Shown piece by piece: positions 3,268 through 19,907 of a DNA stretch of 64,000 nucleotides. Each line of letters opens with the position of its first letter. Position 1 is the stretch's first letter. The position numbers and the translations under genes were made by a program. The stretch is from Bacteroidota bacterium (GTDB taxonomy: Bacteria > Bacteroidota > Bacteroidia > Chitinophagales > Chitinophagaceae). The notes beneath the pieces were generated by a model. The model made no database searches and was not told the origin of the DNA. It saw only the letters and a program-made list of their open reading frames with translations. The DNA lies in NCBI GenBank assembly GCA_030706605.1, contig JAUZOE010000015.1, positions 1 through 64,000 of the forward strand. The letters run 5' to 3'.

Positions 3268-3579
3268 AATATAGTTTTCTATCGGTCAAAATTTAAATGA
3301 GTAAGAATGTGGCGCAAATGTGGATACAGGGATTGCAAATAAAACCTTAAAATCGACTGAATGACATAAATGATGTACAAAAGATATATTATTCATGCCA
3401 AAGTGTTTTTCTATTTATATTGAAAAGTAATTTAATAATAAGGAGATCACTTCTGTCTACAAACATATCTCAATATCATCTCAATCAATCATTTGCAACC
3501 AGAGATGTAAATCATGCCAAGGTATCTGTCGTCAAGATTCACTCAAAACAAACCAGTATTAACTATCTTTGCAGTTACA

Positions 3580-3727
3580 AACTCAAGGGGTGCCTTGCAG
3601 GATAATTGATTAAAAGATCAGTTATACCTGCTGAAAGTAAGGCTGAGATTATACCCATTGAAAGAAACCGGAACAAAACTGTTTCTTTCATGCACCTGAT
3701 ACGGATAATACCGGCGGAGGGAGGAGG
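3580..3727 (+). ncRNA. TPP (THI-element) riboswitch
   Basis: Consensus blocks in order: 'CTCAAGGGGTGCCTT' (3582-3596), 'AAGGCTGAGAttAtACCC' (3639-3656), 'ACCTGATaCGGATAATaCCGGCGgAGGGA' (3694-3722). Sits ~75 nt upstream of a PnuC-family gene. Confidence 0.95.
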
Positions 3728-3798
3728 AATATATTTCAGCACATCAAATTTGCTTTCAACCTGATTGAGTTAATTATAATTTATTCAACCAGTGCAAT

Positions 3799-4434
3799 AT
3801 GTCTTTACACGAATGGTGGAGTTTACTTTTTCAGCAAATAACAGAAACAAGTTGGCTGGAATGGCTGGCGGTGAGTTTGGGTATAGCAGAAGTATTGTAT
3901 GCCAAAACCAACAAAATATGGCTGTATCCAACCGGGATTGCAGGCACATTGCTTACCATCTATTTATTCTTTATGGCCGGTTTGTATGCCGAAGGATTGC
4001 TCAATGGATATTATGTAATAATGAGCGTATATGGCTGGTGGTATTGGATTAAAAAGAAAGATTTACCCCCGGTGAAAATCACCTATTGCAACCGGAAAGA
4101 ATGGCTGGCAATTGTTGGTATTGTTACTGGTAGTTTTATTATATTGTACCTGCTCCTTAAAAATTTTACCCCATCTACTGTTCCTTTTTGGGATGCCTGG
4201 ATCAGTGCAACTGCCTGGGCCGGTATGTGGTTGTTGGCTAAGCGCAAAATAGAAAACTGGATATTATTAAATATTTCCAATGCATTTGCCATACCTATAT
4301 TATTTTATAAACATTTATTATTGTACAGCGGCCTTACCATCTTTCTTTTTGTGGTAGCCATACAGGGATATTTTACATGGCGAAATATTACCAGGAAAGA
4401 AAATATAATTTCATTCACCACAGCAGCAGCATAA
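3799..4434 (+). CDS. pnuT: PnuC-family vitamin transporter, likely PnuT (thiamine) given the upstream TPP riboswitch
   Basis: Multi-TM protein; 'WLEWLAVSLGIAEVLYAKTNKIWLYPTGIAGTLLTIYLF..GLYAEGLLNGYYVIMSVYGWWYW' is typical of PnuC. Confidence 0.88.
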   Translation: MSLHEWWSLLFQQITETSWLEWLAVSLGIAEVLYAKTNKIWLYPTGIAGTLLTIYLFFMAGLYAEGLLNGYYVIMSVYGWWYWIKKKDLPPVKITYCNRKEWLAIVGIVTGSFIILYLLLKNFTPSTVPFWDAWISATAWAGMWLLAKRKIENWILLNISNAFAIPILFYKHLLLYSGLTIFLFVVAIQGYFTWRNITRKENIISFTTAAA

Positions 4435-4449
4435 CTAATTTATTAATTT

Positions 4450-5550
4450 ATGGATCTAAAAAAAATACCCCATCCTTCTTTTTTTATTGATACACAACTA
4501 ACTGATACCATACGCCATTTTGCACGAGATGCAGAAGGATTGGGAAGATTGCATCCTCAACAATTATCAATTATATATGAACAAAAATGGTTTAATTTAT
4601 TTGTGCCAACGTCCTATGGAGGATTGCATTTATCGCTCCCCGAAGGATTAAAAATAGAAGAATGCCTGGCATGGGCAGATGGGAGTACCGGCTGGACAGT
4701 AACCCTTTGCAGTGGCGCTAACTGGTTCATTGGTTTTTTACAAAAGGCGATTGCGGAAATTGTTTTTAATACCAATAAAGTATGCCTTGCAGGAAGCGGG
4801 CGAGCTTCAGGCATTGCCAAAATAGTTGGCGAAGATTATGAGATTACAGGCAATTGGAACTATGCCACAGGCACCGCGCATGCTACCGGATTTACTGCCA
4901 ATTGTATGATTGAAAAAGATGGAGAGATAATAAAGAATGAAGATGGTAGTCCAATGGTATCTTCATTTATATTTTTAAGAGAAGAAGTAACCATTCATGA
5001 AAACTGGAACTGCCTTGGTATGATTGCCACCTCCAGTAATGGTTTTGAAATAAAAGCTTTAAGAGTTAAAAAAAACAGGCGCTTTGAAATTGATCCAAAC
5101 GAGGCCATATTAAATAGTCCTGTTTATCAATACCCATTTCTACAGTTTGCGGAAGCTACACTTGCAGTAAACAGTTCGGGTATGGCACACCGTTATTTTG
5201 ACTTATGTGAAGCCCTGGTAAAAGAACGACAAGAAAGGAAAGACTTTAATACACCCTTGAACCCGTTGGCTAATTTACTGGGAGAAGCAAAAATACAGAT
5301 GGAAGGAACAAGAGAATTATTTTACCACACAGCACAGCTTTCATGGGAAGAATATATTAATAGCAAAACCTGTTCATCTGGCACATTAAAAAAGGTTAGC
5401 AAAACAAGCCGGGAATTGGCATCCAAGGCAAGACATCTCGTTGATGAATTGTATCCTTATTGCGGACTTAAGGCAGCCAACCCATCCACAGAAATGAATC
5501 GTGTATGGCGTAATTTGCATACAGTAAGCCAGCACCCCTTGCTGCTGTAA
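4450..5550 (+). CDS. Acyl-CoA dehydrogenase-like flavoprotein
   Basis: 'FVPTSYGGLHLSLPEGLKIEECLAWADGSTGWTVTLCSGANWFIGF', 'SGRASGIAKIVGEDYEITGNWNYATG': acyl-CoA dehydrogenase N/M-domain patterns. Confidence 0.72.
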   Translation: MDLKKIPHPSFFIDTQLTDTIRHFARDAEGLGRLHPQQLSIIYEQKWFNLFVPTSYGGLHLSLPEGLKIEECLAWADGSTGWTVTLCSGANWFIGFLQKAIAEIVFNTNKVCLAGSGRASGIAKIVGEDYEITGNWNYATGTAHATGFTANCMIEKDGEIIKNEDGSPMVSSFIFLREEVTIHENWNCLGMIATSSNGFEIKALRVKKNRRFEIDPNEAILNSPVYQYPFLQFAEATLAVNSSGMAHRYFDLCEALVKERQERKDFNTPLNPLANLLGEAKIQMEGTRELFYHTAQLSWEEYINSKTCSSGTLKKVSKTSRELASKARHLVDELYPYCGLKAANPSTEMNRVWRNLHTVSQHPLLL

Positions 5551-5639
5551 ATAGTTGATGTTGCTAAAATCATGAATAATGAAAAGGCTTTCCAGCCTCA
5601 TTCAGATACAAATAAAGGAACAGCATTTATCTTTTTACT

Positions 5640-5692
5640 GATATATATACCTGGCTAAAGAAATAATATTTCTTTAGCCAGGTATATATATC
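5640..5692. repeat. 53-bp near-perfect palindrome
   Basis: GATATATATACCTGGCTAAAGAAATA-a-TATTTCTTTAGCCAGGTATATATATC: 26-bp perfect arms around one base. Confidence 0.95.
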
Positions 5693-6154
5693 AAAATGTT
5701 TAGCCAATCAAAACATATTCCCATTTAAAAGAACAAACAAGCAAAAAAATATTCATAGTTACCCAACCTTTTTCAATAAATGATTCAACTTACTATTTAG
5801 TTTATAGTTTAAAAACTCATTTACACTATTAAATAATTAGCATGAACAGACAACAGTTCCAAGGGGGAATAGAAATAGTGAATACATTTTTGACTATGCA
5901 TCTTTATATATGCAACAAAAGTAACCAATTCTCACTGGCTCAGAATGTTGATTTTACTTTAAACCTTACAGATACAGCGACTGCCTTTTTAAAAAGGCGT
6001 GCGGATATATATACACAAATGGAGTAATTGTAGCCAAAATAAAATGGCATGATTATTGATTTTTTCACGTTGCTAATCATAAATAAGTTGAATTATATCT
6101 TCCCTAAGATGATATATAATCGAATTTTGATGTTAACCTTTTGAAACCGATCTT

Positions 6155-6574
6155 ATGAAAAAAACCATTAGAAAAGTACTTCTTATTTTTTCTATTATAA
6201 TGCTGGTATGCATATCCGGTATATGGTACTTTATTTTTTACCGACCAACCCATTATCAGAGAAATATACTGGCAGAAAATAGTATTTCTTTAACAGCTGA
6301 TGAATTGGTAAATAACTACAAAAACAATGAACACAAAAGCGATAGCCTTTTTTTAAACAAAGCAGTAACTGTAACTGGTAAGGTTACGGATGTAAGAAAA
6401 AACCAGGAAGGCAAAACAATCATTTTTTTAGGAAGTAAAGATCCAATGTCGAATGTTTCCTGCACTTTTAAATCACCGACAAACATCATTCCAGGCACTA
6501 ATGTTATCTTAAAGGGTATATGTGCCGGCTATCTGAGTGATGTCATTTTAATAGATGGGGTATACGTAAAATAA
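6155..6574 (+). CDS. OB-fold (tRNA_anti-like) membrane-anchored protein
   Basis: N-terminal TM, then 'NNEHKSDSLFLNKAVTVTGKVTDVRKNQEGKTIIFLG...VSCTF...GTNVILKGICAGYLSDVILIDG'. Confidence 0.65.
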   Translation: MKKTIRKVLLIFSIIMLVCISGIWYFIFYRPTHYQRNILAENSISLTADELVNNYKNNEHKSDSLFLNKAVTVTGKVTDVRKNQEGKTIIFLGSKDPMSNVSCTFKSPTNIIPGTNVILKGICAGYLSDVILIDGVYVK

Positions 6575-6595: not shown

Positions 6596-7318
6596 ATGAA
6601 AAAACTATTTATAGCATTTTTTGCTGTAATGCTTACAATAATTGCGTGTAAGCATGAGATACTATCTCCGACCACTAATACTCCACCCATAATTATCGTT
6701 GACAGTGGGAATGGCAATACCGCCGGCAATAGTAATACAGGCGGTAGTACACCTAATGATAAAGTATGTTTTAACTCCCAGATATTACCTCTTTACCAGG
6801 GCTATTGCGGGAGCATTGGTTGCCACAGCGGAACAAGGCCCGCCGAGGGCGTGGATCTTACGACTTACGCCAACATCATGAGAGGAATCACGGCAAACAA
6901 CCCTTCAGGTAGCAGGTATTTTACGATATTAACAGGTAAAATGCCTCCCAGAAACAGTCCGCAACTAACTGCTGCCCAGATAGCCATTATACAAAAATGG
7001 ATTACAGAGGGTGCAACGAATACACAATGTGTTGTTACAGTTTGTGATACTACAAAATTCACTTATACTAACAGTGTACAGCTAATATATGCAACCTACT
7101 GCAACGGTTGTCATGGCGTAGCCCCAGGATCTGCAAATGTATTTTTAGGAGATTATGCCGGGGCGAAAAATATAGCTGTTACAATGCAACAACAATTACT
7201 TAATGCAATTAATTACACCTCAGCTTCTTCTGCGCAAAATATGCCTCCGGGGGGGAAATTGAGTACTTGTGATATTTCTACGATTACTAACTGGATAAAT
7301 AAAGGAACTCCTCAATAA
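6596..7318 (+). CDS. Cytochrome c-like lipoprotein with CX4CH and CXXCH haem motifs
   Basis: Lipobox 'MLTIIAC'; 'YCGSIGCHSG' (CX4CH) and 'YCNGCHG' (CXXCH), each followed by a 'I..WI..G' segment. Confidence 0.78.
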   Translation: MKKLFIAFFAVMLTIIACKHEILSPTTNTPPIIIVDSGNGNTAGNSNTGGSTPNDKVCFNSQILPLYQGYCGSIGCHSGTRPAEGVDLTTYANIMRGITANNPSGSRYFTILTGKMPPRNSPQLTAAQIAIIQKWITEGATNTQCVVTVCDTTKFTYTNSVQLIYATYCNGCHGVAPGSANVFLGDYAGAKNIAVTMQQQLLNAINYTSASSAQNMPPGGKLSTCDISTITNWINKGTPQ

Positions 7319-7384
7319 TTAATATTAATTAGCCTAACCTTTTATTAAAATAAAGAAGACAGAAAGAATAATTAAACAAACACT

Positions 7385-7762
7385 ATGAAAAAATTCTTGA
7401 TATTTACAACTATGTGTTTTATGATCGCCATATATACCGGCTGTTATTATGACAAGGCCGACCAAATATATTTACCCACCACAATCAACTGCGACACTAC
7501 TAATCTCAAATACGGTACAGATATAAATGCTATACTAAATACCTATTGCAATTCATGTCATGGCGGTAATGCTTCGTTAGGAGGAGGTATAAAATTAGAC
7601 ACTTACGCTTCTTTGCTACCCTATGTAAATAATGGACTCCTGCTAAACGATATTGAACAGAATCCGGGTTTTAATGCAATGCCAAAAGGGGGAGCTAAAT
7701 TATCTGATTGTGTAATCAACAAAATAGCCGCCTGGATAAAAAATACTGCACCTAATAATTAA
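7385..7762 (+). CDS. Small monohaem cytochrome c-like lipoprotein
   Basis: 'YTGCYYDK' lipobox; 'LNTYCNSCHGG' CXXCH; 'MPKGGAKLSDCVINKIAAWIKNTAPNN'. Confidence 0.78.
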   Translation: MKKFLIFTTMCFMIAIYTGCYYDKADQIYLPTTINCDTTNLKYGTDINAILNTYCNSCHGGNASLGGGIKLDTYASLLPYVNNGLLLNDIEQNPGFNAMPKGGAKLSDCVINKIAAWIKNTAPNN

Positions 7763-7778
7763 TTTGAAAATAAAATCT

Positions 7779-8324
7779 ATGAAAAAAATTGTCATGTTCT
7801 TTTCTGCACTGTTAGTTGTAGGTACAGCATCTATAAATGCCCAGAATCTGTATTCAACCCATACCGGGCAAATAAAGTTTTATGCAAGCACACCGCTGGA
7901 AAATGTAGAGGCAGTAAACAATGAAGTAGAAAGCAAAATGTTGCAGAAAAACGGGCAGATCATATTTGCTGTTTTAATTCAGGGCTTTCATTTTGCCAAT
8001 GCTCTCATGCAGGACCATTTTAATGAAAATTATATGGAGAGTACTAAATATCCCAAGGCCGATTTTAAAGGTTACATCACTAATATAGCTTCTGTAAATT
8101 TTAGCAAAGACGGAAAGTATAATATTACGGGTGAAGGCGATCTTACTATTCACGGGGTAACGAAAAAGATCAATACCACAGGTTTTTTGGAGATAGCAGG
8201 TGGTAAAGTATCTATAAACAGTGTATTTAAAATCGACCTTAAAGATTTTAAGGTTACAGGAAGCTACATCGGCACAAAGATAGCCGAGCAGGTACAGGTA
8301 ACTGTTGATTGCAAATACGATTAA
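7779..8324 (+). CDS. YceI-like domain secreted protein
   Basis: Signal peptide; 'HTGQIKFYASTPLENVEAVNNEV...MESTKYPKADFKGYI...YNITGEGDLTIHGVTKKI'. The provided ORF starts at a TTG at 7764; ATG at 7779 is preferred. Confidence 0.82.
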   Translation: MKKIVMFFSALLVVGTASINAQNLYSTHTGQIKFYASTPLENVEAVNNEVESKMLQKNGQIIFAVLIQGFHFANALMQDHFNENYMESTKYPKADFKGYITNIASVNFSKDGKYNITGEGDLTIHGVTKKINTTGFLEIAGGKVSINSVFKIDLKDFKVTGSYIGTKIAEQVQVTVDCKYD

Positions 8325-8346
8325 TCTATACATCAATCAGAATTTT

Positions 8347-9276
8347 ATGACAAGTCCAGTAAAAAAAATTTTATTATTTACATTTTCCATCATCTCCATG
8401 CAGATAGTATTATCACAGGATTCTACTAACCTTTTTAAAATGTTGGACGCTGAAACAGAAAATGATCTGAAGCAAAAAACCACTTATGCTACTTCCATTT
8501 TCAAGACCACCCGTCTCATCAACGGGCATTCCATTGAAAATTTAGGCAAAGGGATACTTGATGTAAAAATATCACACAGATTTGGCACACTTAACAGTGG
8601 GGGATACCAGCTTTTTGGTCTTGATGCTGCCACCATGAGAATGGGGGTTGATTATGGAATAACAAATTGGTTGATGATTGGTGCAGGGAGAAGTACATAC
8701 CAGAAAGAATATGATGCATTTGGCAAAATAAAACTTTTGAGACAGTCATCCGGAAAAGTCAATATGCCTATTTCAGTAAGTGTCGTTTCATCCGTGATGT
8801 TGAAAACACTTAAAAACAGTGACCCAACTATTAAAACATATTTCTCTGATAACCTCGCTTTTGCACAACAGGTATTAATTGCACGCAAGTTTAATGATTT
8901 TATTTCACTACAATTGATGCCCTCAATGATCCATTATAATATAGTTCCCGATCATACACTTCCTAATGATCTCTATTCTATAGGCGGTGGAGGGAGGATT
9001 CGCCTGAGCAAAAGGATCAATCTTACCGGTGAATACTATTACAGACTTCAGGGCTACCAACTACCAGGCAGCTATGATTCCTTTTCATTAGGCATAGATA
9101 TTGAAACAGGTGGCCACGTTTTCCAATTTCATGTTACCAATTCTACAGGCATGACAGAAAGAACTTTTATTGAAGAAACAAACGGACAATGGAGCAAAGG
9201 TGACATACACTTCGGATTTAATATTTCCCGTGTGTTTACCATCGTAAAGCCAAAAGATGTTTCTGCAGCATTGTAA
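8347..9276 (+). CDS. DUF5777-type beta-barrel protein, copy 1
   Basis: 'KISHRFGTLNSGGYQLFGLDAATMRMGVDYGITNWLMIGAGRS...LIARKFNDFISLQL...NLTGEYYYRL..FSLGIDIETGGHVFQFHVTNSTGM'; paralogous to 10032-11006 and 17209-18108. Confidence 0.8.
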   Translation: MTSPVKKILLFTFSIISMQIVLSQDSTNLFKMLDAETENDLKQKTTYATSIFKTTRLINGHSIENLGKGILDVKISHRFGTLNSGGYQLFGLDAATMRMGVDYGITNWLMIGAGRSTYQKEYDAFGKIKLLRQSSGKVNMPISVSVVSSVMLKTLKNSDPTIKTYFSDNLAFAQQVLIARKFNDFISLQLMPSMIHYNIVPDHTLPNDLYSIGGGGRIRLSKRINLTGEYYYRLQGYQLPGSYDSFSLGIDIETGGHVFQFHVTNSTGMTERTFIEETNGQWSKGDIHFGFNISRVFTIVKPKDVSAAL

Positions 9277-9345
9277 ACAATTAAAGATCTAAATGCAATT
9301 TGTATAAATTATTTCCTATTTAATTATTATTACTGGTAACATTCT

Positions 9346-9858
9346 CTATTTTTTAAAGTAAAATTCCAGCCCGGTATCAATGTTCATCATATCTACAAGT
9401 TCGGGTTCTTTTTTACCATCGAAAAGAAGGATACCACAAATATCATTTTTAGAATTAAGGTCTATACAGGTTGTTTTTTTATTGGCTTTAATAAACAACA
9501 GGTAGCGGGCTTTGGAAGTTTCGATGACATGTATCTGTGGCCAGTATTTTTTTAATACCATCCGGGCATTTCTCATTTGATAAAAGCAGTTATGAGTCAG
9601 GCTTTCATAAACCATTTTATTATTAACCGATTTAATTTTTTCAAGTTGAAGAGAATCAGGCTGATAAAATACTGCAGATGGGAATTGAATTGCAAGTGTA
9701 TCGCCAAATGAGGAAGGCGGTTTTTGGAGAAATTGTCTCTCCATGGATGCTTTTGATTTATCCTTGTTTTTGTTACCGGGTGTATGATTGCAGGCAAATA
9801 ATATTGGTACCAAAAAAAATACTCTAATGATGCCTATATTGATGTTATTTTTTTTCAT
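9346..9858 (-). CDS. Hypothetical lipoprotein
   Basis: Signal/lipobox 'FFLVPILFAC'; intact ORF; no family recognised. Confidence 0.5.
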   Translation of the reverse strand: MKKNNINIGIIRVFFLVPILFACNHTPGNKNKDKSKASMERQFLQKPPSSFGDTLAIQFPSAVFYQPDSLQLEKIKSVNNKMVYESLTHNCFYQMRNARMVLKKYWPQIHVIETSKARYLLFIKANKKTTCIDLNSKNDICGILLFDGKKEPELVDMMNIDTGLEFYFKK

Positions 9859-9951
9859 CTCTTTTTATTGAACTATTCAAAGACAAAACTAAAGACTTTC
9901 TTATTTTTCCGGTCTCATAAAAGCATTAAAGTATCGTCTATTAATTCAAAA

Positions 9952-9983
9952 AGAGCCTTTAATCAAAATGAATTAAAGGCTCT
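9952..9983 (-). terminator. Terminator downstream of DUF5777 copy 2
   Basis: AGAGCCTTTAAT...ATTAAAGGCTCT; the minus-strand 3' side reads TTTTTGAATTAA. Confidence 0.7.
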
Positions 9984-10031
9984 CTAAATTATTGCTGTCT
10001 TATCTTTCTGCTTAAATATAACAACATTATT

Positions 10032-11006
10032 TTAATAATTCCATAACCTGGTAATATTAAATCCTATCAGGAATTGCCCTCCTTTTACTTTTTTACCAGT
10101 AGCCTTATCCGTATAACCAAAAGGACTGTTGGTATTAAACATATTATCACGTTGCGGGCTCATATAAGAATAATTACCTAAAAAGAATTGAAAAGCATGC
10201 CCGCCAGTATTGAATTCTACTCCAAATGACAAATTGGGATTTGGATTATTGGTAGCATGTTTGGTTATTGGCTGATCATAATCTATCATAATTGCAGTCA
10301 CATCTGTTATCTTGTACCTACCGGAAAAGGAAAAGGCAAAATGATCGAATTTCATTTCTTTAAATATTGTTTTGCCGGTACTGTCATTTTTCGTGTAATA
10401 TCCATTTACAGAATTCTGATGAGAAACGCTACCCGATACCTGTAAAGAAAGCTTATCAGTAATTTTCCGGGCAACTAACAATTGGTTGAAAAAAGAGAAA
10501 CGCTGTGACCCATATTTAAATATTCCGTGATCAGGATCCTTCCGTGAATCCCATGCCATATTAGCATAATAGGAAACACTAACAGGATATTTCCCTTTTG
10601 TTTGGGTGATGATAGCATATTTAGCATTTCCATCTACTAACATATTGCTTTTGGTAATCCCAACTCCCAAGTTTAGTCCTTTAATAAAGGAATAATTGAC
10701 ACCAAGCCTTATATTGGACGGAGCAAAAAATCCCCAAAAATCCTGGTACCCGTTATTCACTGTACCAAACCTGTGTTGGATATCTACTTCAAGTGAGTTT
10801 TTCTGAGGCACCATTATAGTTTGATTATTCAGAATCCATATACTCTGGAATGTATTTTTTACAGGTTTTAATTTTACCGGGGCAGATGCTTCTTCCGCAG
10901 CACTATCAGCCTGTGCCTGAACTGTGCTATTTAAAATAAATAGACAAACAATGAGGCAGGAAACAAACCCCAACAGGCTTTTTATTTTATTGATACTACT
11001 TTTCAT
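10032..11006 (-). CDS. DUF5777-type beta-barrel protein, copy 2
   Basis: 'FQSIWILNNQTIMVPQKNSLEVDIQHRFGTVNNGYQDFWGFFAPSNIRLGVNYSFIKGLNLGVGITKSNMLVDGNAKYAI..FNTGGHAFQFFLGNYSYMSPQ..FLIGFNITRLWNY'. Confidence 0.83.
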   Translation of the reverse strand: MKSSINKIKSLLGFVSCLIVCLFILNSTVQAQADSAAEEASAPVKLKPVKNTFQSIWILNNQTIMVPQKNSLEVDIQHRFGTVNNGYQDFWGFFAPSNIRLGVNYSFIKGLNLGVGITKSNMLVDGNAKYAIITQTKGKYPVSVSYYANMAWDSRKDPDHGIFKYGSQRFSFFNQLLVARKITDKLSLQVSGSVSHQNSVNGYYTKNDSTGKTIFKEMKFDHFAFSFSGRYKITDVTAIMIDYDQPITKHATNNPNPNLSFGVEFNTGGHAFQFFLGNYSYMSPQRDNMFNTNSPFGYTDKATGKKVKGGQFLIGFNITRLWNY

Positions 11007-11031
11007 AATGAATTATTTTTTTAAAAGTCAT

Positions 11032-11415
11032 TTAATTATTCGGCGCACCATTTCTTATCCAGTCATATACCATTTGTCTGTCTTTAGCAGAAGGAATATG
11101 TTCTCTCATGTCTCCGTTTATTTCAAGATATAGTATGCTTGCTTTGGGAATATCAGTATTTACAAACCCTCCATTAATAATCTGCTGGTAAGATATATCT
11201 GTATTCATATACGGTTTATGTCCACCATCGACATGACATCCGGAAAGTGCACAATTAGTGTTAAACAAAGGAGCCAATTGAGTAGAAAAACTTACGGGTT
11301 GCGGAGGACCGTCCGGATCAACCGCTGCATCAGGAAGAATAACATCCTTATAGCAACTGGCTAAAGAAAATCCCATCGCTACTATCAGCCCAATATATAT
11401 TAATAATCGTTTCAT
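11032..11415 (-). CDS. Small CX4CH cytochrome-like lipoprotein
   Basis: Lipobox 'GFSLASC'; 'LFNTNCALSGCHVDGG'; 'IPSAKDRQMVYDWIRNGAPNN'. Confidence 0.75.
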   Translation of the reverse strand: MKRLLIYIGLIVAMGFSLASCYKDVILPDAAVDPDGPPQPVSFSTQLAPLFNTNCALSGCHVDGGHKPYMNTDISYQQIINGGFVNTDIPKASILYLEINGDMREHIPSAKDRQMVYDWIRNGAPNN

Positions 11416-11439
11416 TTTAATATCGTTTTAGGGTGTGAA

Positions 11440-12237
11440 TTATTTATTGTTGAAATTCATGTTGCACTCAATCTGCACATTATCAGAAATGCTGGTGCTG
11501 GTAATGCCATAATCTCTGCAATCGAACTGGAAGGTTAATTGTAAACCGAACACGTCATAAGCAGAAGCAGTTCCGGCGTTTACAGTTGCTCTTTTGATAT
11601 ATTTTAATCTGCCAACAAGAGATTCTGTAAGTGGCTGTGCAAGTTTGCCTTGCCAAGTAAGGTTAAGCGTAACAATATAGTCTTCGCTCAAAGGATCTAA
11701 TTCTATTTTAGTAGTTTTTATCTTAGCCAAATTAGTAACGGTCAGGTTTTGAGTTCCAGCTACAATTGGTACTGTACCCAGGCCGGAAATATTGCAGCCA
11801 CCATCCCTGGCTGGCTCTCCTGTATTGGATTGATTAATTTGTACATAACCATTAAAATAGGTTTTTGCAGGATCACTCTCATAAAATGCCCACGAAGTAT
11901 CCATCAAAGGCTGGCCGGTAGTCACATAATTTTGCATTTCTGCATCAGTTACATTATGCATTCCAAATTGGTTAAAGCGGCCGGTAAGTAATCCTGCGGC
12001 CCCCACATAATTGGTTTGCCATAATACACTGGAGTGAGCCTTGTCTAATTTCCATTGGGTAGTATCACCTACAACCATATTACCTGGAAGCAAAATTGCG
12101 GAACCCCTGTTGATAACAGCAGTAGTAGTAGCTGGTGCCGGTAAAATATCATTTTCATGTGTACAGCCGGCAATATATCCGTAACCACTAATAAGAACAA
12201 GCAAAGCGAGCAGGGTTTTATTATTAAACAGTTTCAT
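11440..12237 (-). CDS. YceI-like domain lipoprotein
   Basis: 'GYIAGCTHEND' lipobox; 'QWKLDKAHSSVLWQTNYVGAAGLLTGRFNQFGM...LTWQGKLAQPLTESLVGRLKYI' YceI pattern. Confidence 0.72.
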   Translation of the reverse strand: MKLFNNKTLLALLVLISGYGYIAGCTHENDILPAPATTTAVINRGSAILLPGNMVVGDTTQWKLDKAHSSVLWQTNYVGAAGLLTGRFNQFGMHNVTDAEMQNYVTTGQPLMDTSWAFYESDPAKTYFNGYVQINQSNTGEPARDGGCNISGLGTVPIVAGTQNLTVTNLAKIKTTKIELDPLSEDYIVTLNLTWQGKLAQPLTESLVGRLKYIKRATVNAGTASAYDVFGLQLTFQFDCRDYGITSTSISDNVQIECNMNFNNK

Positions 12238-12277
12238 AAATTGTAATTTTTTGTGAATAATTATTAAATAATTAACA

Positions 12278-12321
12278 CAAAACTAATCCCAGTTGTATTA
12301 CAATTTTATGACAATAATCAA
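12278..12321 (-). promoter_or_regulatory. Predicted promoter with FNR/CRP-like box, module 2
   Basis: Plus strand ATGACAATAATCAA (12308-12321), i.e. minus-strand TTGATTATTGTCAT. Minus-strand TAGTTTTG (12278-12285) matches the Bacteroidota -7 consensus TAnnTTTG. Confidence 0.55.
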
Positions 12322-12431
12322 ATGCAAATATGATGTTAATCAACAAGAGTAACGTTCATAAAATGACTCACTTTAATTGCCCTGAGGTGAATCAATAAAA
12401 TAAAAAATTGAGGATGAATAAAGAGTCTGCC

Positions 12432-12965
12432 TTAGTCGGAAGAAGTCTTCCGGCTTTCCCGGATTTTGCTCATAACAAACCAGAGTATTGCTATACATGC
12501 GAGATTAGCTGTGTTAAGTAATAGGCTGTCGGTATATACTTTCATATCGTTTTTAATTATCTCACTGTCTATGGAAGAAGTGATTAACATCCAGAAATCT
12601 TTAATCAACAAGAAAAAAAACACCAGACTATGGAACAAGCTATAAACAGGTTTTTTGCTTAGAGCAGGAATCCAAAATAAAACCGATAGAAGCCCCCATA
12701 TTTTTAAATATGGATTTTGAAATTGTTCAACAATATTTTGCAATGATAAATCAATTGATATATTTTTTAATACCATTCCCAAAAACAAAGTCCCCGTAAG
12801 CGCATAAGCATAAGGAAGTAACTTTGGTAAACAGTTAATAAAAGAACTTGTTTTTTTTCTTTGTTCGCCTTTTATAAAATGCACGAGAGCATAAACAATA
12901 GCATATCCAGCAAAAAAACCTATTAATTCAAGTTTTTGAATATAGGTTTCAAAATTATTCCCCAT
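12432..12965 (-). CDS. Hypothetical multi-TM membrane protein
   Basis: Hydrophobic segments 'LIGFFAGYAIVYALVHFI', 'LPYAYALTGTLFLGMVL', 'IWGLLSVLFWIPAL', 'LHSLVFFFLLIKDFWML'. Confidence 0.55.
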   Translation of the reverse strand: MGNNFETYIQKLELIGFFAGYAIVYALVHFIKGEQRKKTSSFINCLPKLLPYAYALTGTLFLGMVLKNISIDLSLQNIVEQFQNPYLKIWGLLSVLFWIPALSKKPVYSLFHSLVFFFLLIKDFWMLITSSIDSEIIKNDMKVYTDSLLLNTANLACIAILWFVMSKIRESRKTSSD

Positions 12966-13149
12966 AATAGTTTTATTTCACGAATTATGAAACACCAATT
13001 GCATACTCAAATATTATACTGGACTTTATCTGGCGTGTTAAAATCTTCATCCATTATTAAAAATAGAAAAATTACCCTGAAACTTTTCAAACGGGGAATT
13101 ATTTCGCTCAATTTAATAAATCATTGGATTAAAAATAAAACAATATCAA

Positions 13150-14082
13150 TTATATATCGTCAGGTTCATCAGAACCGTTTATCATCGCAAATTGTTTACC
13201 TAGTTTGCCAATTTTAATTATGCGAAACACGAGATAAATAAGAGTACCCCATATACCAATAGCAATAGAATAAACGGTAAAGAGCAACCAGTAAGGAGTT
13301 TTGAACCTGGTAGACCATAATGTACGTTGCTCAAAAAATGTGGTATTATGTTCAGTAACTTTCCCCCAGGGCACTGTTTTTTCCATCAAGAGGTTACCAA
13401 TTTCATCATTATCCTGAATTTTAACCGCCAGCACAAGATTCCCTTTTTGATCACCGGGCATACTGTCTTTCTTAAGTTCTACAGTTACCGAGCCGGTTGA
13501 GTCTGTTGTATAAGTTGGCTCATCTCCAGCAGAAACAATACCCACCAGGCGTTTTATACCAACCCTCATTTCCACATCAGAAATGGGTACCCATTCGCTA
13601 TTTTTCAGGTCCATTACCGTAGCTGTAATATTTTTTACCCCATCTACCGTTGATGTATCAATAGTAATTTTTGCTTTGGTAATGGTATAATCTGAAAGGA
13701 CTTCTTCATCTCCTTGCTTTACTATAAATGTATGCTGAGAAGAAGCATCCCATATAGATTTTAATGCAGGAGGTATAAATGCTTTGCCCTTCCCTTCCTC
13801 ATCAGTCGTCACACTGCTTACGAGATTTTTCTGAGCTGCACTGTCAAGGTATATCTCATAAGTCATTTTCGAATGGGGAGTAAATACTCTTCCATTTTTC
13901 AACAAACTTTCCAATACCAGGTATTGCATTTTGCCGTTAATATTGAAATAATGCAGCCGCACAACATTTTCCGGTTTTACAGAATCATTCTGAGCAGTAA
14001 GTGTATTATTGAACAGATTGAAGGAGATAAATAAAAACAGGAGAATAAATTTATTTTGATTCATCTTTTTCATTTTTTTCAT
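13150..14082 (-). CDS. Secreted protein with C-terminal TM anchor, co-transcribed with NrfD
   Basis: Signal peptide; C-terminal 'PYWLLFTVYSIAIGIWGTLIYLVFRII'. Overlaps the end of the NrfD gene; the actual start may be the internal MNQNKF. Confidence 0.6.
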   Translation of the reverse strand: MKKMKKMNQNKFILLFLFISFNLFNNTLTAQNDSVKPENVVRLHYFNINGKMQYLVLESLLKNGRVFTPHSKMTYEIYLDSAAQKNLVSSVTTDEEGKGKAFIPPALKSIWDASSQHTFIVKQGDEEVLSDYTITKAKITIDTSTVDGVKNITATVMDLKNSEWVPISDVEMRVGIKRLVGIVSAGDEPTYTTDSTGSVTVELKKDSMPGDQKGNLVLAVKIQDNDEIGNLLMEKTVPWGKVTEHNTTFFEQRTLWSTRFKTPYWLLFTVYSIAIGIWGTLIYLVFRIIKIGKLGKQFAMINGSDEPDDI

Positions 14083-15397
14083 TTAGTTCGTTTTGTTCAT
14101 CTATTGTTTCCTGGATAGGTATTATTGGATAAATTCTTGCAAAAAAGGTAATAACGAGTAAAGCTCCTGCCAGTGAGCCACCCGCGATTGCCCATTCCTC
14201 CCAACTTGGAAAATAATATTTAAAGTTTTCAGGGACATTCTGCATTGGTAAAAACGGATGTAATAATGTGGGTGTTACAATAATATATCTTTTAAACCAG
14301 GCGCCTACCACTACCATTATACCCACAATAAACATAGGGAGAGGCCTTCTTCCCTTTTTAAATACCAATATAATAATAGGGATGATCATGCCCACCAAAA
14401 TAGCAAACCAAAACATAGGTGCATATGAACCCACAAATAATTGCAAAATAAGAGACCTCTCTGATTCTTTCATTTTAAAAGCCGGAGTCAGAAATTCATT
14501 CACATTAAAATACAGGTAAACCAGCGCAAGCATAACTACTATTCTACCCATCCTTTCAAAGTGCATATCAGTGATATATTTTTCCAGTTTATACGCTTTA
14601 CGGAATACATACATGGCCACCGCTACAGCACCAGCCCCTGCCAGGAATGCTCCTGAAATAAAATAGGCTCCAAAATTGGTGCTATCCCAACCCGGACGAT
14701 AAGTGGTAGCAAATAACCAGGAGGTAACTGTATGAATCATAAATGCAACCGGTATTATAACTATACAAAGGATACTGATTGACCTATCACTTATATGCAT
14801 CTGCTCCTTTGTCCCTTTCCAGAATGAACCCTGAAAGCGATATAATTTATTCAATCTTTTCCCGGTTTGTTTTTTGAACTTTAATAGTATTTTAAGATCA
14901 GGTAATAACGGGAAATATAATAACAGAATACTGATAAAAAAATAAGTACTGATCACAATAACATCCCACAAAATAGGAGATTGAATACGCCCATGAAGTA
15001 CCAGGTTCATAAATCTTTCTGGGCGCCCCATATCTACCACTATAATAAGCGCTGCAAAGACGATATTTGATACAGCAATGATTTCAGCAATTCTGGTTAT
15101 TGGGGTTCTCCATTTTACATTGGTAAGCCTGAAAATGGCGGTAATAAGAGAGCCCACCAGGCTAATAGCAACAAAAAAAACGAAATTGGAGATATAAATG
15201 CCCCACGAAACATAATCGCGCATGTGGGTAACAATAAGGCCATATCTCAACTGCCGGGCATAAGCAAATAATCCGAAAAGGCTAACAACAATTAAAATCC
15301 CGGTCCAGATCATCCCACGTTTACCAAATTTTTGGGGAAGAAGGTCACGTGTAATTTGATCGGAGGTTAAAGTAGATATAGAAGTTGATTTTTCCAC
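14051..15397 (-). CDS. NrfD/PsrC/DsrP-type polytopic quinol-interacting membrane subunit
   Basis: Many TM segments; 'GLFAYARQLRYGLIVTHMRDYVSWGIYISNFVFFVAISLVGSLITA..R..IAVSNIVFAALIIVVDMGRPERF..LHGRIQSPILWDVIVIS' is a NrfD family pattern. Confidence 0.88.
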   Translation of the reverse strand: MEKSTSISTLTSDQITRDLLPQKFGKRGMIWTGILIVVSLFGLFAYARQLRYGLIVTHMRDYVSWGIYISNFVFFVAISLVGSLITAIFRLTNVKWRTPITRIAEIIAVSNIVFAALIIVVDMGRPERFMNLVLHGRIQSPILWDVIVISTYFFISILLLYFPLLPDLKILLKFKKQTGKRLNKLYRFQGSFWKGTKEQMHISDRSISILCIVIIPVAFMIHTVTSWLFATTYRPGWDSTNFGAYFISGAFLAGAGAVAVAMYVFRKAYKLEKYITDMHFERMGRIVVMLALVYLYFNVNEFLTPAFKMKESERSLILQLFVGSYAPMFWFAILVGMIIPIIILVFKKGRRPLPMFIVGIMVVVGAWFKRYIIVTPTLLHPFLPMQNVPENFKYYFPSWEEWAIAGGSLAGALLVITFFARIYPIIPIQETIDEQNELNEKNEKDESK

Positions 15398-15400
15398 GGC

Positions 15401-16372
15401 TTAATTTTTTTTAATTGAGAGTTTTGCATCTTCATATAAATGATCAGGTTTGTACTCATTTTCAAGACCTGATTCATAAGGAAAGTTTCTGTTTACAGGA
15501 GGTAAATAATAAACACTAGGCTTAGTCCCCAGGTCTTCCATTAATCTATATCCCGCTTTATCTTTTATAAGGTCACTAAAACGAAATGACTCGGCTCCGT
15601 TAGTTACTGAATCCTCATTCATATCACCAAACATAAAAACTCCATTAGGGCATGCCGATACACAATGAGGTAATTCACCCTTTCTACTCATATCGGGACA
15701 AAAATCACATTTACCTACTGTTCCTCTTTTTTGTGGCATGCTAGTTTCACAGGAATAAGGCTGGTCAGCAACTTCTTCAGTAAGTATAGGCTCCTCCCAA
15801 TTAAACACTCTTGTAGAATATGGGCAGGCTGCCATGCAAAAACGGCAACCAATACAACGATCACTGTCAATCAATACAATTCCATCCTGCCTTTTAAAAG
15901 TGGCATCTACAGGGCATACTTTTACACAAGGAGGCTCATCACAATGCATACAGGTGGTAGGCTGCCAGTAGGGCGCAGTGTGGTCAGCATCTTCCATTCC
16001 TAATACTTTTATCCAGTTTTGTCCGGGATGTACCTGGTGCATATGATTGCAGGCACTCTGGCATCTTCTCAAATTTTTACAACGTGACAAGTCAATCACC
16101 ATAACAAACTTTTTACCCGGAATTCCTCTTCTCTCTTCTGAATTGGATAATTGAGGAGTATCGGGTACAGGCTTCAGAAAAGCTTTATCTATTTCAATCA
16201 CTTCTCCGTCTACTGAAAGCAATTTTACTTTTTGACCTGTAAGCGCTACCTGATCTTCTGTAGAAAAAGGATTATTTTTATCACTGCATCCCGCTACTGC
16301 GGCAGAAGCCAATAACCCTGTCAGCAGGAACTCTCTTCTTGATTTATTAGTATTATCATTCATTGTTGACAA
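15401..16372 (-). CDS. 4Fe-4S ferredoxin-type electron-transfer subunit (DsrO/HybA-like), predicted Tat lipoprotein
   Basis: 'SRREFLLTGLLASAAVAGC' combines a Tat motif and a lipobox; four Cys clusters: CKNLRRCQSAC, CMHCDEPPCVKVCP, CIGCRFCMAACP, CDFCPDMSRKGELPHCVSACP. Confidence 0.88.
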   Translation of the reverse strand: MSTMNDNTNKSRREFLLTGLLASAAVAGCSDKNNPFSTEDQVALTGQKVKLLSVDGEVIEIDKAFLKPVPDTPQLSNSEERRGIPGKKFVMVIDLSRCKNLRRCQSACNHMHQVHPGQNWIKVLGMEDADHTAPYWQPTTCMHCDEPPCVKVCPVDATFKRQDGIVLIDSDRCIGCRFCMAACPYSTRVFNWEEPILTEEVADQPYSCETSMPQKRGTVGKCDFCPDMSRKGELPHCVSACPNGVFMFGDMNEDSVTNGAESFRFSDLIKDKAGYRLMEDLGTKPSVYYLPPVNRNFPYESGLENEYKPDHLYEDAKLSIKKN

Positions 16373-16376
16373 TTTA

Positions 16377-16604
16377 TTATTTTACCCATTGTTGTAATTC
16401 CTTATCACTGATTTGTTTTCCAGGTGAAGCCAGCAGTTTTTTATCTATTTCTACCAACTTGCCATCCTGTGTAAGCATTTTCACAGTATCGTTTTTTTTC
16501 TTCTTTGGTGTTCCTATGAATTTAAAAACTGTTGCCGAAGAAATGATTGTAGCACTCCACAGAAGAAATTTTTTTCTTGAAGTGGGTTTTTTAGATTCTT
16601 GCAT
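16377..16604 (-). CDS. Small membrane-anchored protein resembling the N-terminal linker of the adjacent Fe-S protein
   Basis: 'SRKKFLLWSATIISSATVFKFIG' Tat-like N-terminus; 'VKMLTQDGKLVEIDKKLL' parallels 'VKLLSVDGEVIEIDKAFL' in the downstream Fe-S protein. Confidence 0.6.
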   Translation of the reverse strand: MQESKKPTSRKKFLLWSATIISSATVFKFIGTPKKKKNDTVKMLTQDGKLVEIDKKLLASPGKQISDKELQQWVK

Positions 16605-16708
16605 AATATTGATGAGTTAAATAGAAAGGCTAAAATTACACGAGTATTATTTTTTATTTTATGAGCTATCCCAGTTATCAATATGATTTTAATCACCTGG
16701 TTACAAGC

Positions 16709-16742
16709 CAAAAAAAAAGCTCAATAAATGAGCTTTTTTTAG
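16709..16742 (-). terminator. Intrinsic terminator downstream of the monohaem cytochrome
   Basis: AAAAAAAGCTC-AATAAAT-GAGCTTTTTTT, T-tract on both strands. Confidence 0.85.
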
Positions 16743-16746
16743 ATTA

Positions 16747-17157
16747 TTATTTTAGTGTCCTTATAAAATTGACAAGGCTCCACCTGTCCTCTTCATCAGG
16801 TATTTTCTTTTTGAAAGAAGGCATATCATCTCTTCCTTCGGATAATCTATAAAATATTTCGCCGTCTGTCTGGGATTGCAAATCAGGTTTTGTGAAATCT
16901 CCCGGATCTGTTTTTAACTGGGAAGCTTTAGTACCATCACCTAATCCCTTTGCTCCATGACATGATTTACAATGGGTATTCCATAAAGATTTGCCAGCTT
17001 TAATTGACTCAGCATTGCTGGGCACTTCATTTTTTTTGGCTTTAGCAGCGGCAGGCACTGGCCATGGCTTCTTTTGATCACTTGTGTTTACATTTAAAGT
17101 AAAACTTGCAACTATAAAACCTGTGGCTAGAATTGTAATTATTCCTTTTGTTTTCAT
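16747..17157 (-). CDS. Monohaem cytochrome c
   Basis: 'AGKSLWNTHCKSCHGAKGLGDGTKA...DMPSFKKKIPDEEDRWSLVNFIRTL', class I cytochrome c. Confidence 0.9.
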   Translation of the reverse strand: MKTKGIITILATGFIVASFTLNVNTSDQKKPWPVPAAAKAKKNEVPSNAESIKAGKSLWNTHCKSCHGAKGLGDGTKASQLKTDPGDFTKPDLQSQTDGEIFYRLSEGRDDMPSFKKKIPDEEDRWSLVNFIRTLK

Positions 17158-17208
17158 TTGTATTTATTTTTTTAAGTTAAATATTAAAAATTAGACTAAT
17201 AAAATTAG

Positions 17209-18108
17209 CTAAAAATTCCATAAATGAGTAATATTGAATCCGATCACAAACTGTCCAACTGTATAGTCATTCTGATTAAACATGTTGTTACTCTGGGGTA
17301 CAATGCCATAATAATTGCCGGCAAATACCTGGAACGCATGTGAACTGGTAGTTGTTTCAAAGCCCAAACAGATATTAGGATGTGGATTATCGGTGGGATG
17401 CTGGGTTAGTGGTTGATCATAACCGGCTGTGATAGCAGATTTTTCAGATATCTTATATCTACCTGCCACTGATACAGCAAAATGGTAATTATGCATTTTT
17501 TCACGAATATTACCTTTGCTATCCACATAAGCTTCTACATTATTAAACCACGAAAAACTGGGTGCTACCTGCACAGAGAATTCATCAGTTATTTTTCGTG
17601 CAATGATCAACTGGTTAAAATAAGAGAACCTATCAACACTATTGCGGAAATTACTTTTATCCCTCGCATCAATTACTACGTTTCCAAAATAGGTTGCACT
17701 TACCGGCATAATACCAGGTGTCTGTTCGAGTAATGCATATTTTGCAAACATATCTACCTGCATCCTTTCTTTAGTAACTCCAGCACCAACTAATAACTTT
17801 TTGAGAGGTGCATAGCTAAGTCCTATCCTGATATTAGAAGGAGCAAATATTCCATAGAGGTCTTTTTTACCATTATCGACTGTTCCAAACCGGTGTTGGA
17901 TAGCCATTTCCAATGTCCCTTTTATGGGCACCATTACCGATTGATTGTCCATTATAAACACACTTCCAAAAGTGTTTTTTACTGGTTTTACTTTTTTAAT
18001 AACAGGAGCTTCTTCCGTTGAATCCTGTGCAAAAGATTGACCTGCAGAAAGCATCAGCAAGACAAATGCGGCAAGAAGTTGTAATAGAATTTTATTATAA
18101 TTTTTCAT
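17209..18108 (-). CDS. DUF5777-type beta-barrel protein, copy 3
   Basis: 'FGSVFIMDNQSVMVPIKGTLEMAIQHRFGTVDNGKKDLYGIFAPSNIRIGLSYAPLKKLLVGAGVTKERMQVD..GFETTTSSHAFQVFAGNYYGIVPQSNNMFNQ..FVIGFNITHLWNF'; closely parallels copy 2. Start MKNYNK chosen. Confidence 0.83.
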   Translation of the reverse strand: MKNYNKILLQLLAAFVLLMLSAGQSFAQDSTEEAPVIKKVKPVKNTFGSVFIMDNQSVMVPIKGTLEMAIQHRFGTVDNGKKDLYGIFAPSNIRIGLSYAPLKKLLVGAGVTKERMQVDMFAKYALLEQTPGIMPVSATYFGNVVIDARDKSNFRNSVDRFSYFNQLIIARKITDEFSVQVAPSFSWFNNVEAYVDSKGNIREKMHNYHFAVSVAGRYKISEKSAITAGYDQPLTQHPTDNPHPNICLGFETTTSSHAFQVFAGNYYGIVPQSNNMFNQNDYTVGQFVIGFNITHLWNF

Positions 18109-18118
18109 GTTGCTTTTT

Positions 18119-18511
18119 TTAATTGTTATTAGCACCTTGTGTTATCCATGCCAGAACGAGTGCCGCATAGTCCTTATTAACACCGCTTACAGGCATTGGA
18201 GTTCCCCGCTTGCCTGTCATCTTTTGATAAATGACACTATTTTGGGGATTTGCTTTATCAAAATAGTTACCTATAGTAAGTGAGTTATACGCATTTGTTT
18301 CAGTCAGGTTAGGTGACTGCCCACCTGTACTATGACAACCACTGGTATTGCAACTTTTATTGAAGATGGGAATAATATCCTGGGAGAAACTTACAGTTCT
18401 TGTTATTGCCGGGACATCTAAAATTACAGTTTTGTCCTTGTAACAACCCGACAGAAAGAAGATAATTCCCAACACTAGTATTAACCCTTCTAATGTTTTT
18501 TTATGAAACAT
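18119..18511 (-). CDS. Small CX4CH cytochrome-like lipoprotein
   Basis: Lipobox 'FFLSGC'; 'IFNKSCNTSGCHSTGG'; 'PVSGVNKDYAALVLAWITQGANNN'. Confidence 0.75.
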   Translation of the reverse strand: MFHKKTLEGLILVLGIIFFLSGCYKDKTVILDVPAITRTVSFSQDIIPIFNKSCNTSGCHSTGGQSPNLTETNAYNSLTIGNYFDKANPQNSVIYQKMTGKRGTPMPVSGVNKDYAALVLAWITQGANNN

Positions 18512-18554
18512 AATATTTAGTATTTTATGTGAAATATTCCCTCACACTTAACGG

Positions 18555-19907
18555 TTATTTTTGAAATTTCAATACCAGGTTAGGCTGAATGCCATGCTGA
18601 TAATTTGAATTATTCCAAATTGCAATTCCAAATACCTGGTCTTGTAAGCTTGAAAAATCAATATCCTGCTTCAATACATCCCCGGTTTTCAATGCTCGTT
18701 GGTATTCTAGAACCCATCCGCTCCCTGTATATTTTGCACCAGCAGTAATGTCTGCTCTTTCGCCAATTAAAGGAACTCCAATATAAGAGGGGATTGAATT
18801 TTTTGCAGTGGCACCGGTAGCAGTACCGGATCTTTGATAATCTGTACCCACATTAGGATCAATTGTGGAACCATCACTTAAAGTCAATACACCAGTTGAA
18901 CTTACTCCGGTTACTTTTTTTGCTTTACCACTTGTAGTATCAGCTACCAAAATATAACCTGCACTTCCGGCTCCCGGTATTACCCAAATTGGAACGTTAA
19001 CTTTTGCACCTGTGCCATCTAATAGCAAACTCTGCGAATTACTAACCTCACCTTGTGTAGGAGAACTTGTATAATTTGGCCTATATGGCCACGTTGCCGA
19101 GAAAGTGCCATCCGGAACAATACCGTCTACATGCCTTCCATTTCCATTACCACCTGTAATGTTGGTAAAAGCCGGGCCACCAGCCCAATCCTGGTAGTTA
19201 TCATCCATAAAATGCAGCGATTCATCTTTGCTTATATAACCTAAACGGCCCCACCACATGTCAATTTTTTCAGAGGCACCATTAGTATAATGGTTACCGC
19301 TTGCATTAGCTGTATAAACCGGTGGGTTTTTTGAATAATCCATATAAGGTGTAAATACATGGCAGCTGGCATAGCAAGTTTGGGAGATGAATTTTGGTGT
19401 GGAATTATCAATGTTCCAAAGCATTGCAACCCTATCCTCGCCGAAGCCATTTCTTGATAAGACTCCGCTTGCATTATAGCTATCACTTGAAGGTTCTTTT
19501 GCCCATCCTGTTTTTCCTGTTACATTCGCCGCAGGATCAAAATACCATGGAGCAACATTTACACTTTGAGTTAAATCCGGAATTTCTACTAAGAAATAAA
19601 TATTTTGGCCATCGTACATAGAACGGATTGTTGCAGGATATTTCTGACCACTATACCCGGCAAATAAACCATTCCCAGGATCTGGCACTGTTGGTGTAAT
19701 TTGTAATTTGGTCGCTTTATCCCACTCAGCATCAATTGTTCCATCAATGGTTGGAGGGGTAGTTATCCTTAAAGAAACCAAATCTGTGGAGCTATTAATC
19801 TGAGGTATATCCAATACCTGGTTATCTTTTGTACAGCTAACCACATAACCAATTGATAATACAATGGTTGTAATTACCCACATGTATTTTGTTTTGAGAA
19901 GTTTCAT
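18555..19907 (-). CDS. Ethylbenzene-dehydrogenase-related haem-binding lipoprotein (EB_dh-like)
   Basis: Lipobox 'GYVVSC'; 'PPTIDGTIDAEWDKATKLQI...MYDGQNIYFLVEIPDLTQSVNVAPWYFDP', 'FGEDRVAMLWNID...CYASCHVFTPY', 'KIDMWWGRLGYISKDESLHFMDD', typical of EB_dh/haem-b domains. Confidence 0.78.
   Translation of the reverse strand: MKLLKTKYMWVITTIVLSIGYVVSCTKDNQVLDIPQINSSTDLVSLRITTPPTIDGTIDAEWDKATKLQITPTVPDPGNGLFAGYSGQKYPATIRSMYDGQNIYFLVEIPDLTQSVNVAPWYFDPAANVTGKTGWAKEPSSDSYNASGVLSRNGFGEDRVAMLWNIDNSTPKFISQTCYASCHVFTPYMDYSKNPPVYTANASGNHYTNGASEKIDMWWGRLGYISKDESLHFMDDNYQDWAGGPAFTNITGGNGNGRHVDGIVPDGTFSATWPYRPNYTSSPTQGEVSNSQSLLLDGTGAKVNVPIWVIPGAGSAGYILVADTTSGKAKKVTGVSSTGVLTLSDGSTIDPNVGTDYQRSGTATGATAKNSIPSYIGVPLIGERADITAGAKYTGSGWVLEYQRALKTGDVLKQDIDFSSLQDQVFGIAIWNNSNYQHGIQPNLVLKFQK

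Follow-up and report, generated by a model that had tools for sequence, protein, structure and literature searches.

We examined a 64,000-nucleotide stretch of contig JAUZOE010000015.1 (hereafter the window; assembly GCA_030706605.1, from a bacterium of the Chitinophagaceae, Bacteroidota) which encodes three outer-membrane beta-barrels of the DUF5777 family, each accompanied by small haem lipoproteins and by a further protein that we call the head. The explanation that best accounts for the genes, their linkage, their fusions, the exchange of partners and the predicted barrel fold is that a DUF5777 barrel and a monohaem c-type lipoprotein form a two-piece, Cyc2-like outer-membrane redox unit with an exchangeable head, and that two of the three sets are wired to menaquinol; we give this about an even chance. 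More tentatively, and with confidence somewhat short of even, we propose that the pair represents a phylum-wide, unnamed porin-cytochrome family with swappable heads and parts far smaller than those of MtrCAB, which would carry electrons across the outer membrane or exchange them there, and one clade of which would be driven by a dedicated NrfD/Fe-S menaquinol oxidase. In the open-licence literature searched we found no paper naming DUF5777 and none joining YceI, NrfD, Bacteroidetes and cytochrome.

The association of barrel and haem protein extends across the phylum. DUF5777 was found in 51 of 61 relatives and, in a sample of the phylum, in 63 of 149 genomes and 46 of 84 genera. Linkage was scored at 135 distinct barrel loci that had 1.4 kb or more of flanking sequence on both sides, with haem motifs counted by pattern and gene runs called by a simple open reading frame (ORF) rule. 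A redox partner, either a haem or a Rieske protein, lies in the same gene run at 114 of the 135 loci (a small cytochrome at 105, a larger haem protein at five and a Rieske protein at four). Among unlabelled genes, ORFs with a haem motif make up 174 of 639 (27%) within three positions of the barrel versus 28 of 548 (5%) at six or more positions away. The commonest partner is YceI, at 93 of the 135 loci, and EB_dh proteins occur at 21. An earlier sequence-only reading of the window had paired the barrel with small haem lipoproteins, and had named a lack of conserved linkage across genomes as grounds for abandoning the idea; the neighbourhood survey and the three fusions described below instead uphold a conserved unit.

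In a few lineages the two proteins are a single chain, which makes it very probable that they cooperate in moving electrons at the outer membrane. The fused protein of locus L196, 6337-5072 (-) (also L218), consists of a signal peptide, a CX4CH cytochrome domain and a DUF5777 barrel; the CX4CH domain is likewise N-terminal to DUF5777 in L220, 363-1595 (-), and the third case is L219, 155-1477 (-) (PF19089 E 2.7e-48). These fusions span three genera of three families, and their cytochrome domain has CX4CH and an MP motif. It was a search with the L196 protein that found the other two, in genomes G263 (55% identical) and G224 (46%), and a BLAST search with the fused protein recovered its halves as separate neighbouring genes, within ~3 kb of each other, in ~24 other genomes by our count. 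The cytochrome can also be replaced: a Rieske lipoprotein takes its place at L125/L201 and L139/L202 (PF00355 above cut-off), and an azurin gene lies ahead of one fusion (PF00127 E 1.3e-14). This exchange among CX4CH or CX2CH cytochromes, Rieske proteins and azurin favours an electron-transfer role for the small partner. Lipoproteins of Rieske type by pattern only were seen beside the barrel at L177, L189 and L205, and cupredoxin-like proteins near the barrel, beside an OB-fold gene, at L128 and L132.

A Pfam search of the genome found exactly three DUF5777 barrels, all within the window and all above the curated cut-off of PF19089. Set 1, on the plus strand, comprises a lipoprotein with two cytochrome domains (6596..7318; PF13442 E 1.7e-9), one CX4CH (CGSIGCH) and one CX2CH (CNGCH), a small monohaem CX2CH cytochrome lipoprotein (7385..7762; PF13442 E 1.7e-6), a YceI lipocalin with an ordinary signal peptide (7779..8324; PF04264 E 1.2e-14) and the barrel (8347..9276; PF19089 E 3.5e-94). 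Sets 2 and 3 are on the minus strand. The head of set 2 is a YceI-type lipoprotein (11440..12237; PF04264 E 7.3e-7), followed by a small CX4CH lipoprotein (11032..11415) and the barrel (10032..11006; PF19089 E 3.8e-76). Set 3 consists of an EB_dh-type haem lipoprotein as head (18555..19907; PF09459 E 7.2e-22), a small CX4CH lipoprotein with a distal Met-Pro motif, recognized by motif alignment and PDB profile matches (18119..18511), and the barrel (17209..18108; PF19089 E 8.6e-72). The ORF check and Pfam searches thus agree with the ten ORFs and domains listed in the sequence-only reading. Both small set 1 cytochromes match PF13442 above its cut-off, and their haem motifs are mixed.

In Pfam, the two small CX4CH lipoproteins of sets 2 and 3 match no family above cut-off. 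In alignment, CX4CH and CX2CH fall at one site whose Cys and His are invariant (21/21), so the CX4CH lipoproteins very likely bind haem too. The PDB entries matched by a profile built on the set 3 protein were all c-type cytochromes or haem proteins, FoxE and cytochromes c6 among them (E 0.001-0.07). With a covalent-haem motif at a conserved site and similarity to cytochrome c, the small lipoproteins have the marks of c-type cytochromes and would carry their haem covalently; the concern that they might not bind haem, raised in the sequence-only reading, finds no support here. In the small cytochromes of set 2, Ile-Pro takes the place of the usual Met-Pro and a conserved Met lies four residues upstream, so these proteins may have a displaced sixth haem ligand or lack one.

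The three sets had been described as a triplicated module. In pairwise comparison, the barrels of sets 2 and 3 share 48% identity, whereas the set 1 barrel reaches only 26-27% with each of them. The small CX4CH lipoproteins of sets 2 and 3 are 35% identical (E 1e-19), and both are homologous to the two-domain cytochrome of set 1 (E about 1e-7). In a tree of 188 barrels, those of sets 2 and 3 share a 37-leaf clade (support 0.99), nested in a 45-leaf clade of NrfD-linked barrels (support 1.0) whose heads are EB_dh, lipoprotein-YceI or hexahaem proteins; the set 1 barrel groups separately, with the YceI-type majority. Because of these identities and this placement we reject a simple triplication: by sequence comparison, the sets are one duplication, giving the sister paralogues 2 and 3, plus one old relative, set 1. 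The tree placement indicates that the set 2 branch, with its YceI head, stems from a duplication within the EB_dh-type clade accompanied by an exchange of head. This supports the earlier suggestion that heads were swapped between copies, and the tree shows such swaps between lineages too.

The minus strand from 19907 to 9346 reads as a single operon-like run of about 10 kb, flanked by sets 3 and 2, and contains an inner-membrane half of the system (Fe-S protein, NrfD and cytochrome c) that the sequence-only reading had missed. After the head, small lipoprotein and barrel of set 3 come a periplasmic monohaem cytochrome c (16747..17157; PF13442 E 5.5e-11), a Tat-type ORF, an Fe-S protein (15401..16372) and an NrfD-like quinone-site membrane subunit of the ActC type (14051..15397; PF03916 E 1.1e-33). 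The best PDB matches of NrfD are the ActC subunits of four alternative complexes III (ACIIIs), with E from 3.4e-46 (6f0k) to 3.6e-40, and it is 27.5% identical to the ActC of the same genome; the cytochrome c is 22% identical to that genome's ActE (E 3e-8). The Fe-S protein is a Tat-type lipoprotein subunit closest to PsrB (PDB 2vpw, E 1.1e-30) with four cluster motifs, one of which has three Cys: in 23 of 23 relatives motif I lacks its second Cys (position 101 is never Cys), whereas the genome's own ActB loses a Cys at a different motif. It also keeps an invariant His112, unlike that ActB.

Elsewhere the genome carries a complete ActABCDEF set with cytochrome oxidase genes after it (G000:C23; L123 1815-10443). 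Identity between this ACIII and the proteins of the window is only 22-29%, and the run is thus a separate, smaller ACIII relative. It resembles alternative complex III and PsrABC in its ActC-like NrfD, PsrB/ActB-like Fe-S protein and weakly ActE-like cytochrome c, but contains no ActA, ActD, ActF or PsrA: of a full ACIII set (pentahaem ActA, ActB with a Mo-like domain, ActD, ActE and ActF) the run holds ActC-like, short ActB-like and weakly ActE-like genes. No inner-membrane partner is encoded with set 1. Within the run, a hairpin at 16712-16740 that has T-rich ends may divide it into separately expressed parts; a promoter scan gave 58 sites versus 59.0 in shuffled sequence, no excess.

The remaining genes of the run, all on the minus strand, are less easily named. 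The Tat-type ORF encodes a 75-residue protein with a Tat-like start (16377..16604) between the cytochrome c and Fe-S genes, where relatives have an ORF of 70-118 residues. After NrfD come a protein with a signal peptide, a periplasmic domain and a C-terminal membrane helix (13150..14082; no Pfam match), which always adjoins NrfD and is found in 25 relatives, and a membrane protein upstream of the set 2 head (12432..12965; no Pfam match), conserved in nine relatives. The YceI lipoprotein, small CX4CH lipoprotein and barrel of set 2 follow, and the run ends with an unassigned, conserved lipoprotein of 170 residues (9346..9858; no Pfam match), usually downstream of a Y2-type barrel and with counterparts in L069, L074, L078, L080, L082, L083 and L084. 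On the plus strand, set 1 is preceded by a membrane-anchored OB-fold protein (6155..6574; tRNA_anti-like PF12869, E 1.9e-20), and OB-fold-like ORFs sit ahead of the cytochrome, YceI and barrel genes in the gene maps of many relatives. These additional genes, like the three of the inner-membrane half, belong to the sets but had been absent from the earlier list.

To assess the shape of the barrel we modelled that of set 3 with AlphaFold from an alignment of 27 sequences (mean predicted local distance difference test score 81, predicted template modelling score 0.75). The model has 12 strands, and the alternation of hydrophobicity between inside and outside is clear in all 12 across the family. 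The nearest solved folds are NanC, FapF and the COG4313 channel, and also VhGalP. Barrels that surround a multihaem wire, such as MtrB, have 26 strands, and Cyc2 has 16 (PMC8406198). With 12 predicted strands the barrel would be too narrow for a multihaem wire, and the cytochrome could cap it rather than run through its lumen.

The heads differ more than the other parts. In the EB_dh head the covalent-haem motif is CX3CH (C178, C182, H183), which together with H438 is invariant in 20 of 20 relatives. Gene maps and the tree place di-CX4CH, MauG-like or hexahaem heads in other lineages. Lys is found at position +3 of the mature lipoprotein in 11 of 13 EB_dh heads, 47 of 119 small cytochromes and 23 of 122 other lipoproteins, counted without regard to kinship. 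It is also present in all seven SusD lipoproteins of this genome, and the Capnocytophaga lipoprotein export signal is C-X-K-(D/E)2 (PMC5080379). Because of this resemblance the EB_dh head sequences hint, before any correction for kinship, at exposure on the cell surface; the corresponding case for the small cytochromes is weaker. Several variants were seen in passing: a fourth barrel type in L034-L038, about 2900-6100 (-), with a head of 396-420 residues bearing two CX4CH motifs and divergent from the EB_dh set; a CX2CH cytochrome domain inserted into a head of EB_dh type in L088, 9238-10614 (-); and hexahaem lipoproteins upstream of an NrfD-linked barrel in L048 (6337-7410) and L170 (519-1601). 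The L170 protein has a collagen-like linker, and its match to an MtrC/MtrF domain (E 1.3e-6) is below cut-off.

In the redox unit that we propose, the barrel would be a narrow 12-strand pore with the cytochrome at its mouth, on the periplasmic side by analogy with the fused versions. The cytochrome would swap electrons either with a small soluble partner arriving through the pore or with a head bound in the complex, and the head (YceI, EB_dh, or a di- or multihaem protein) would determine which substrate is oxidised or reduced. For sets 2 and 3, the proposed electron route runs from menaquinol to NrfD, the Fe-S lipoprotein, the cytochrome c at 16747-17157 and then the outer-membrane unit; this outward direction is suggested solely by kinship with ACIII. 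Set 1 probably relies on general periplasmic carriers. A close comparison is Cyc2, a fused monohaem cytochrome-porin and Fe(II) oxidase, which resembles the fused forms (L196/L218, L219 and L220) in having one c-type haem domain N-terminal to the barrel, a narrow pore and, likewise, neighbouring periplasmic carriers, cupredoxin among them. Cyc2, however, has 16 strands and CXXCH, whereas the barrel here has 12 predicted strands and the haem motif, in most cases CX4CH or CX2CH, belongs to a separate lipoprotein, with a gene of its own in the window. The Cyc2 motif P-x-F-A-R-[QK]-[TY], which lies upstream of the haem site, was found in none of 252 small haem ORFs and none of the three fusions, and on this motif and the strand number we rejected membership in Cyc2.

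Several observations weigh against this explanation. By the ORF rule, 21 of the 135 loci lack a redox partner, although one of these is a fusion and three (L089, L096 and L178) have a cytochrome behind a spurious opposite-strand ORF. Barrel and cytochrome are fused in only 3 of 188 barrels, and a model of the small cytochrome, built without haem, matched no cytochrome in a fold search. The fused cytochromes should face the periplasm and the export hint of the EB_dh head points outside, so a complete electron path through the membrane is hypothetical. In the model, the residues best conserved among barrels (H72, F74, H257, F259, F291 and R295, on strands 11, 12 and 1) face the lipid side, a pattern unaccounted for if the barrel were simply a pore for solutes. 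This stripe may serve for docking or for lipid binding, or may partly reflect the assembly signal of the last strand. A bis-His site inside the barrel formed by H72 and H257 was considered and rejected, both being lipid-facing and towards opposite strand ends.

The lipid-side conservation would fit a different function, the main and a serious rival although we judge it rather unlikely: repair of envelope quinones or lipid radicals. YceI would ferry either oxidised lipid or an isoprenoid quinol between a redox protein and the outer membrane, the cytochrome or Rieske protein anchored there would recycle it, and the barrel would bind lipid on its outside or anchor the complex. The ligand of YceI lipocalins is ubiquinone-8 or an octaprenyl compound, and in Burkholderia the YceI protein BcnA and the cytochrome b561 LcoA guard membranes against lipid peroxyl radicals, with bcnA and lcoA mutants accumulating lipid peroxides (PMC9113575). 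Together with these ligands and mutants, the standing of YceI as the commonest barrel partner favours such a role. Set 1 would be well suited to it, since it has YceI but lacks an inner-membrane partner. The BcnA-LcoA-PsrA system, of which this would be a Bacteroidota counterpart, is alike in having a YceI lipocalin gene beside the gene of an envelope redox protein; that protein is cytochrome b561 there, whereas here it is a cytochrome c or Rieske lipoprotein, with a DUF5777 barrel. No cytochrome b561 was recognised beside the barrels in the genes scanned, although no dedicated b561 search was made. At many loci YceI is absent and the head is an EB_dh, MauG-like or hexahaem protein, and the fusions unite the barrel with the cytochrome, not with YceI. 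The redox unit and the repair system may each be true of different branches.

It is also conceivable, though we judge it improbable, that the barrel is a porin admitting a substrate such as an oxyanion, on which lipoproteins fed by NrfD and the Fe-S protein would act in the periplasm, no electrons crossing the outer membrane. The nearest folds are indeed small-solute porins (NanC, the COG4313 channel and VhGalP), and the best PDB match of the EB_dh head is nitrite oxidoreductase subunit C (E 0.0016). With that subunit, NXR-C, and the gamma subunit of ethylbenzene dehydrogenase, the set 3 head shares its fold family, but it differs in being a lipoprotein with an invariant CX3CH and no molybdoenzyme partner; within the run, Pfam identified neither a catalytic molybdenum subunit nor any other subunit with a known active site. 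A porin would not need a fused cytochrome, and the barrel and cytochrome stay constant while the heads vary. The conduit pictured in the sequence-only reading, with cytochromes threaded through the barrel, now seems very improbable. As in MtrCAB, PioAB and MtoAB, an outer-membrane barrel is encoded with haem proteins, and a hexahaem head is present at two loci (L048 and L170). Those systems, however, place a 26-strand barrel round a decahaem wire, whereas the barrel modelled here has 12 strands, too narrow by the model to hold a haem protein, a finding that the sequence-only reading had itself named as grounds for abandoning the idea, and the window partners are all monohaem save the two-haem protein at 6596-7318. 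We rejected threading on the predicted strand number, the nearest folds and the alternation pattern. What survives of the undescribed outer-membrane electron-transfer system first suggested is a plausible, conserved unit rather than a conduit.

Barrels occur in about half of the sampled Bacteroidota genera. Should the two-piece unit indeed pass electrons at the outer membrane, this large and common phylum, which is not known for such exchange, would have a compact redox gate there. The modular heads make its substrate testable, and the fusions are ready single-chain proteins for spectroscopy and structure determination.

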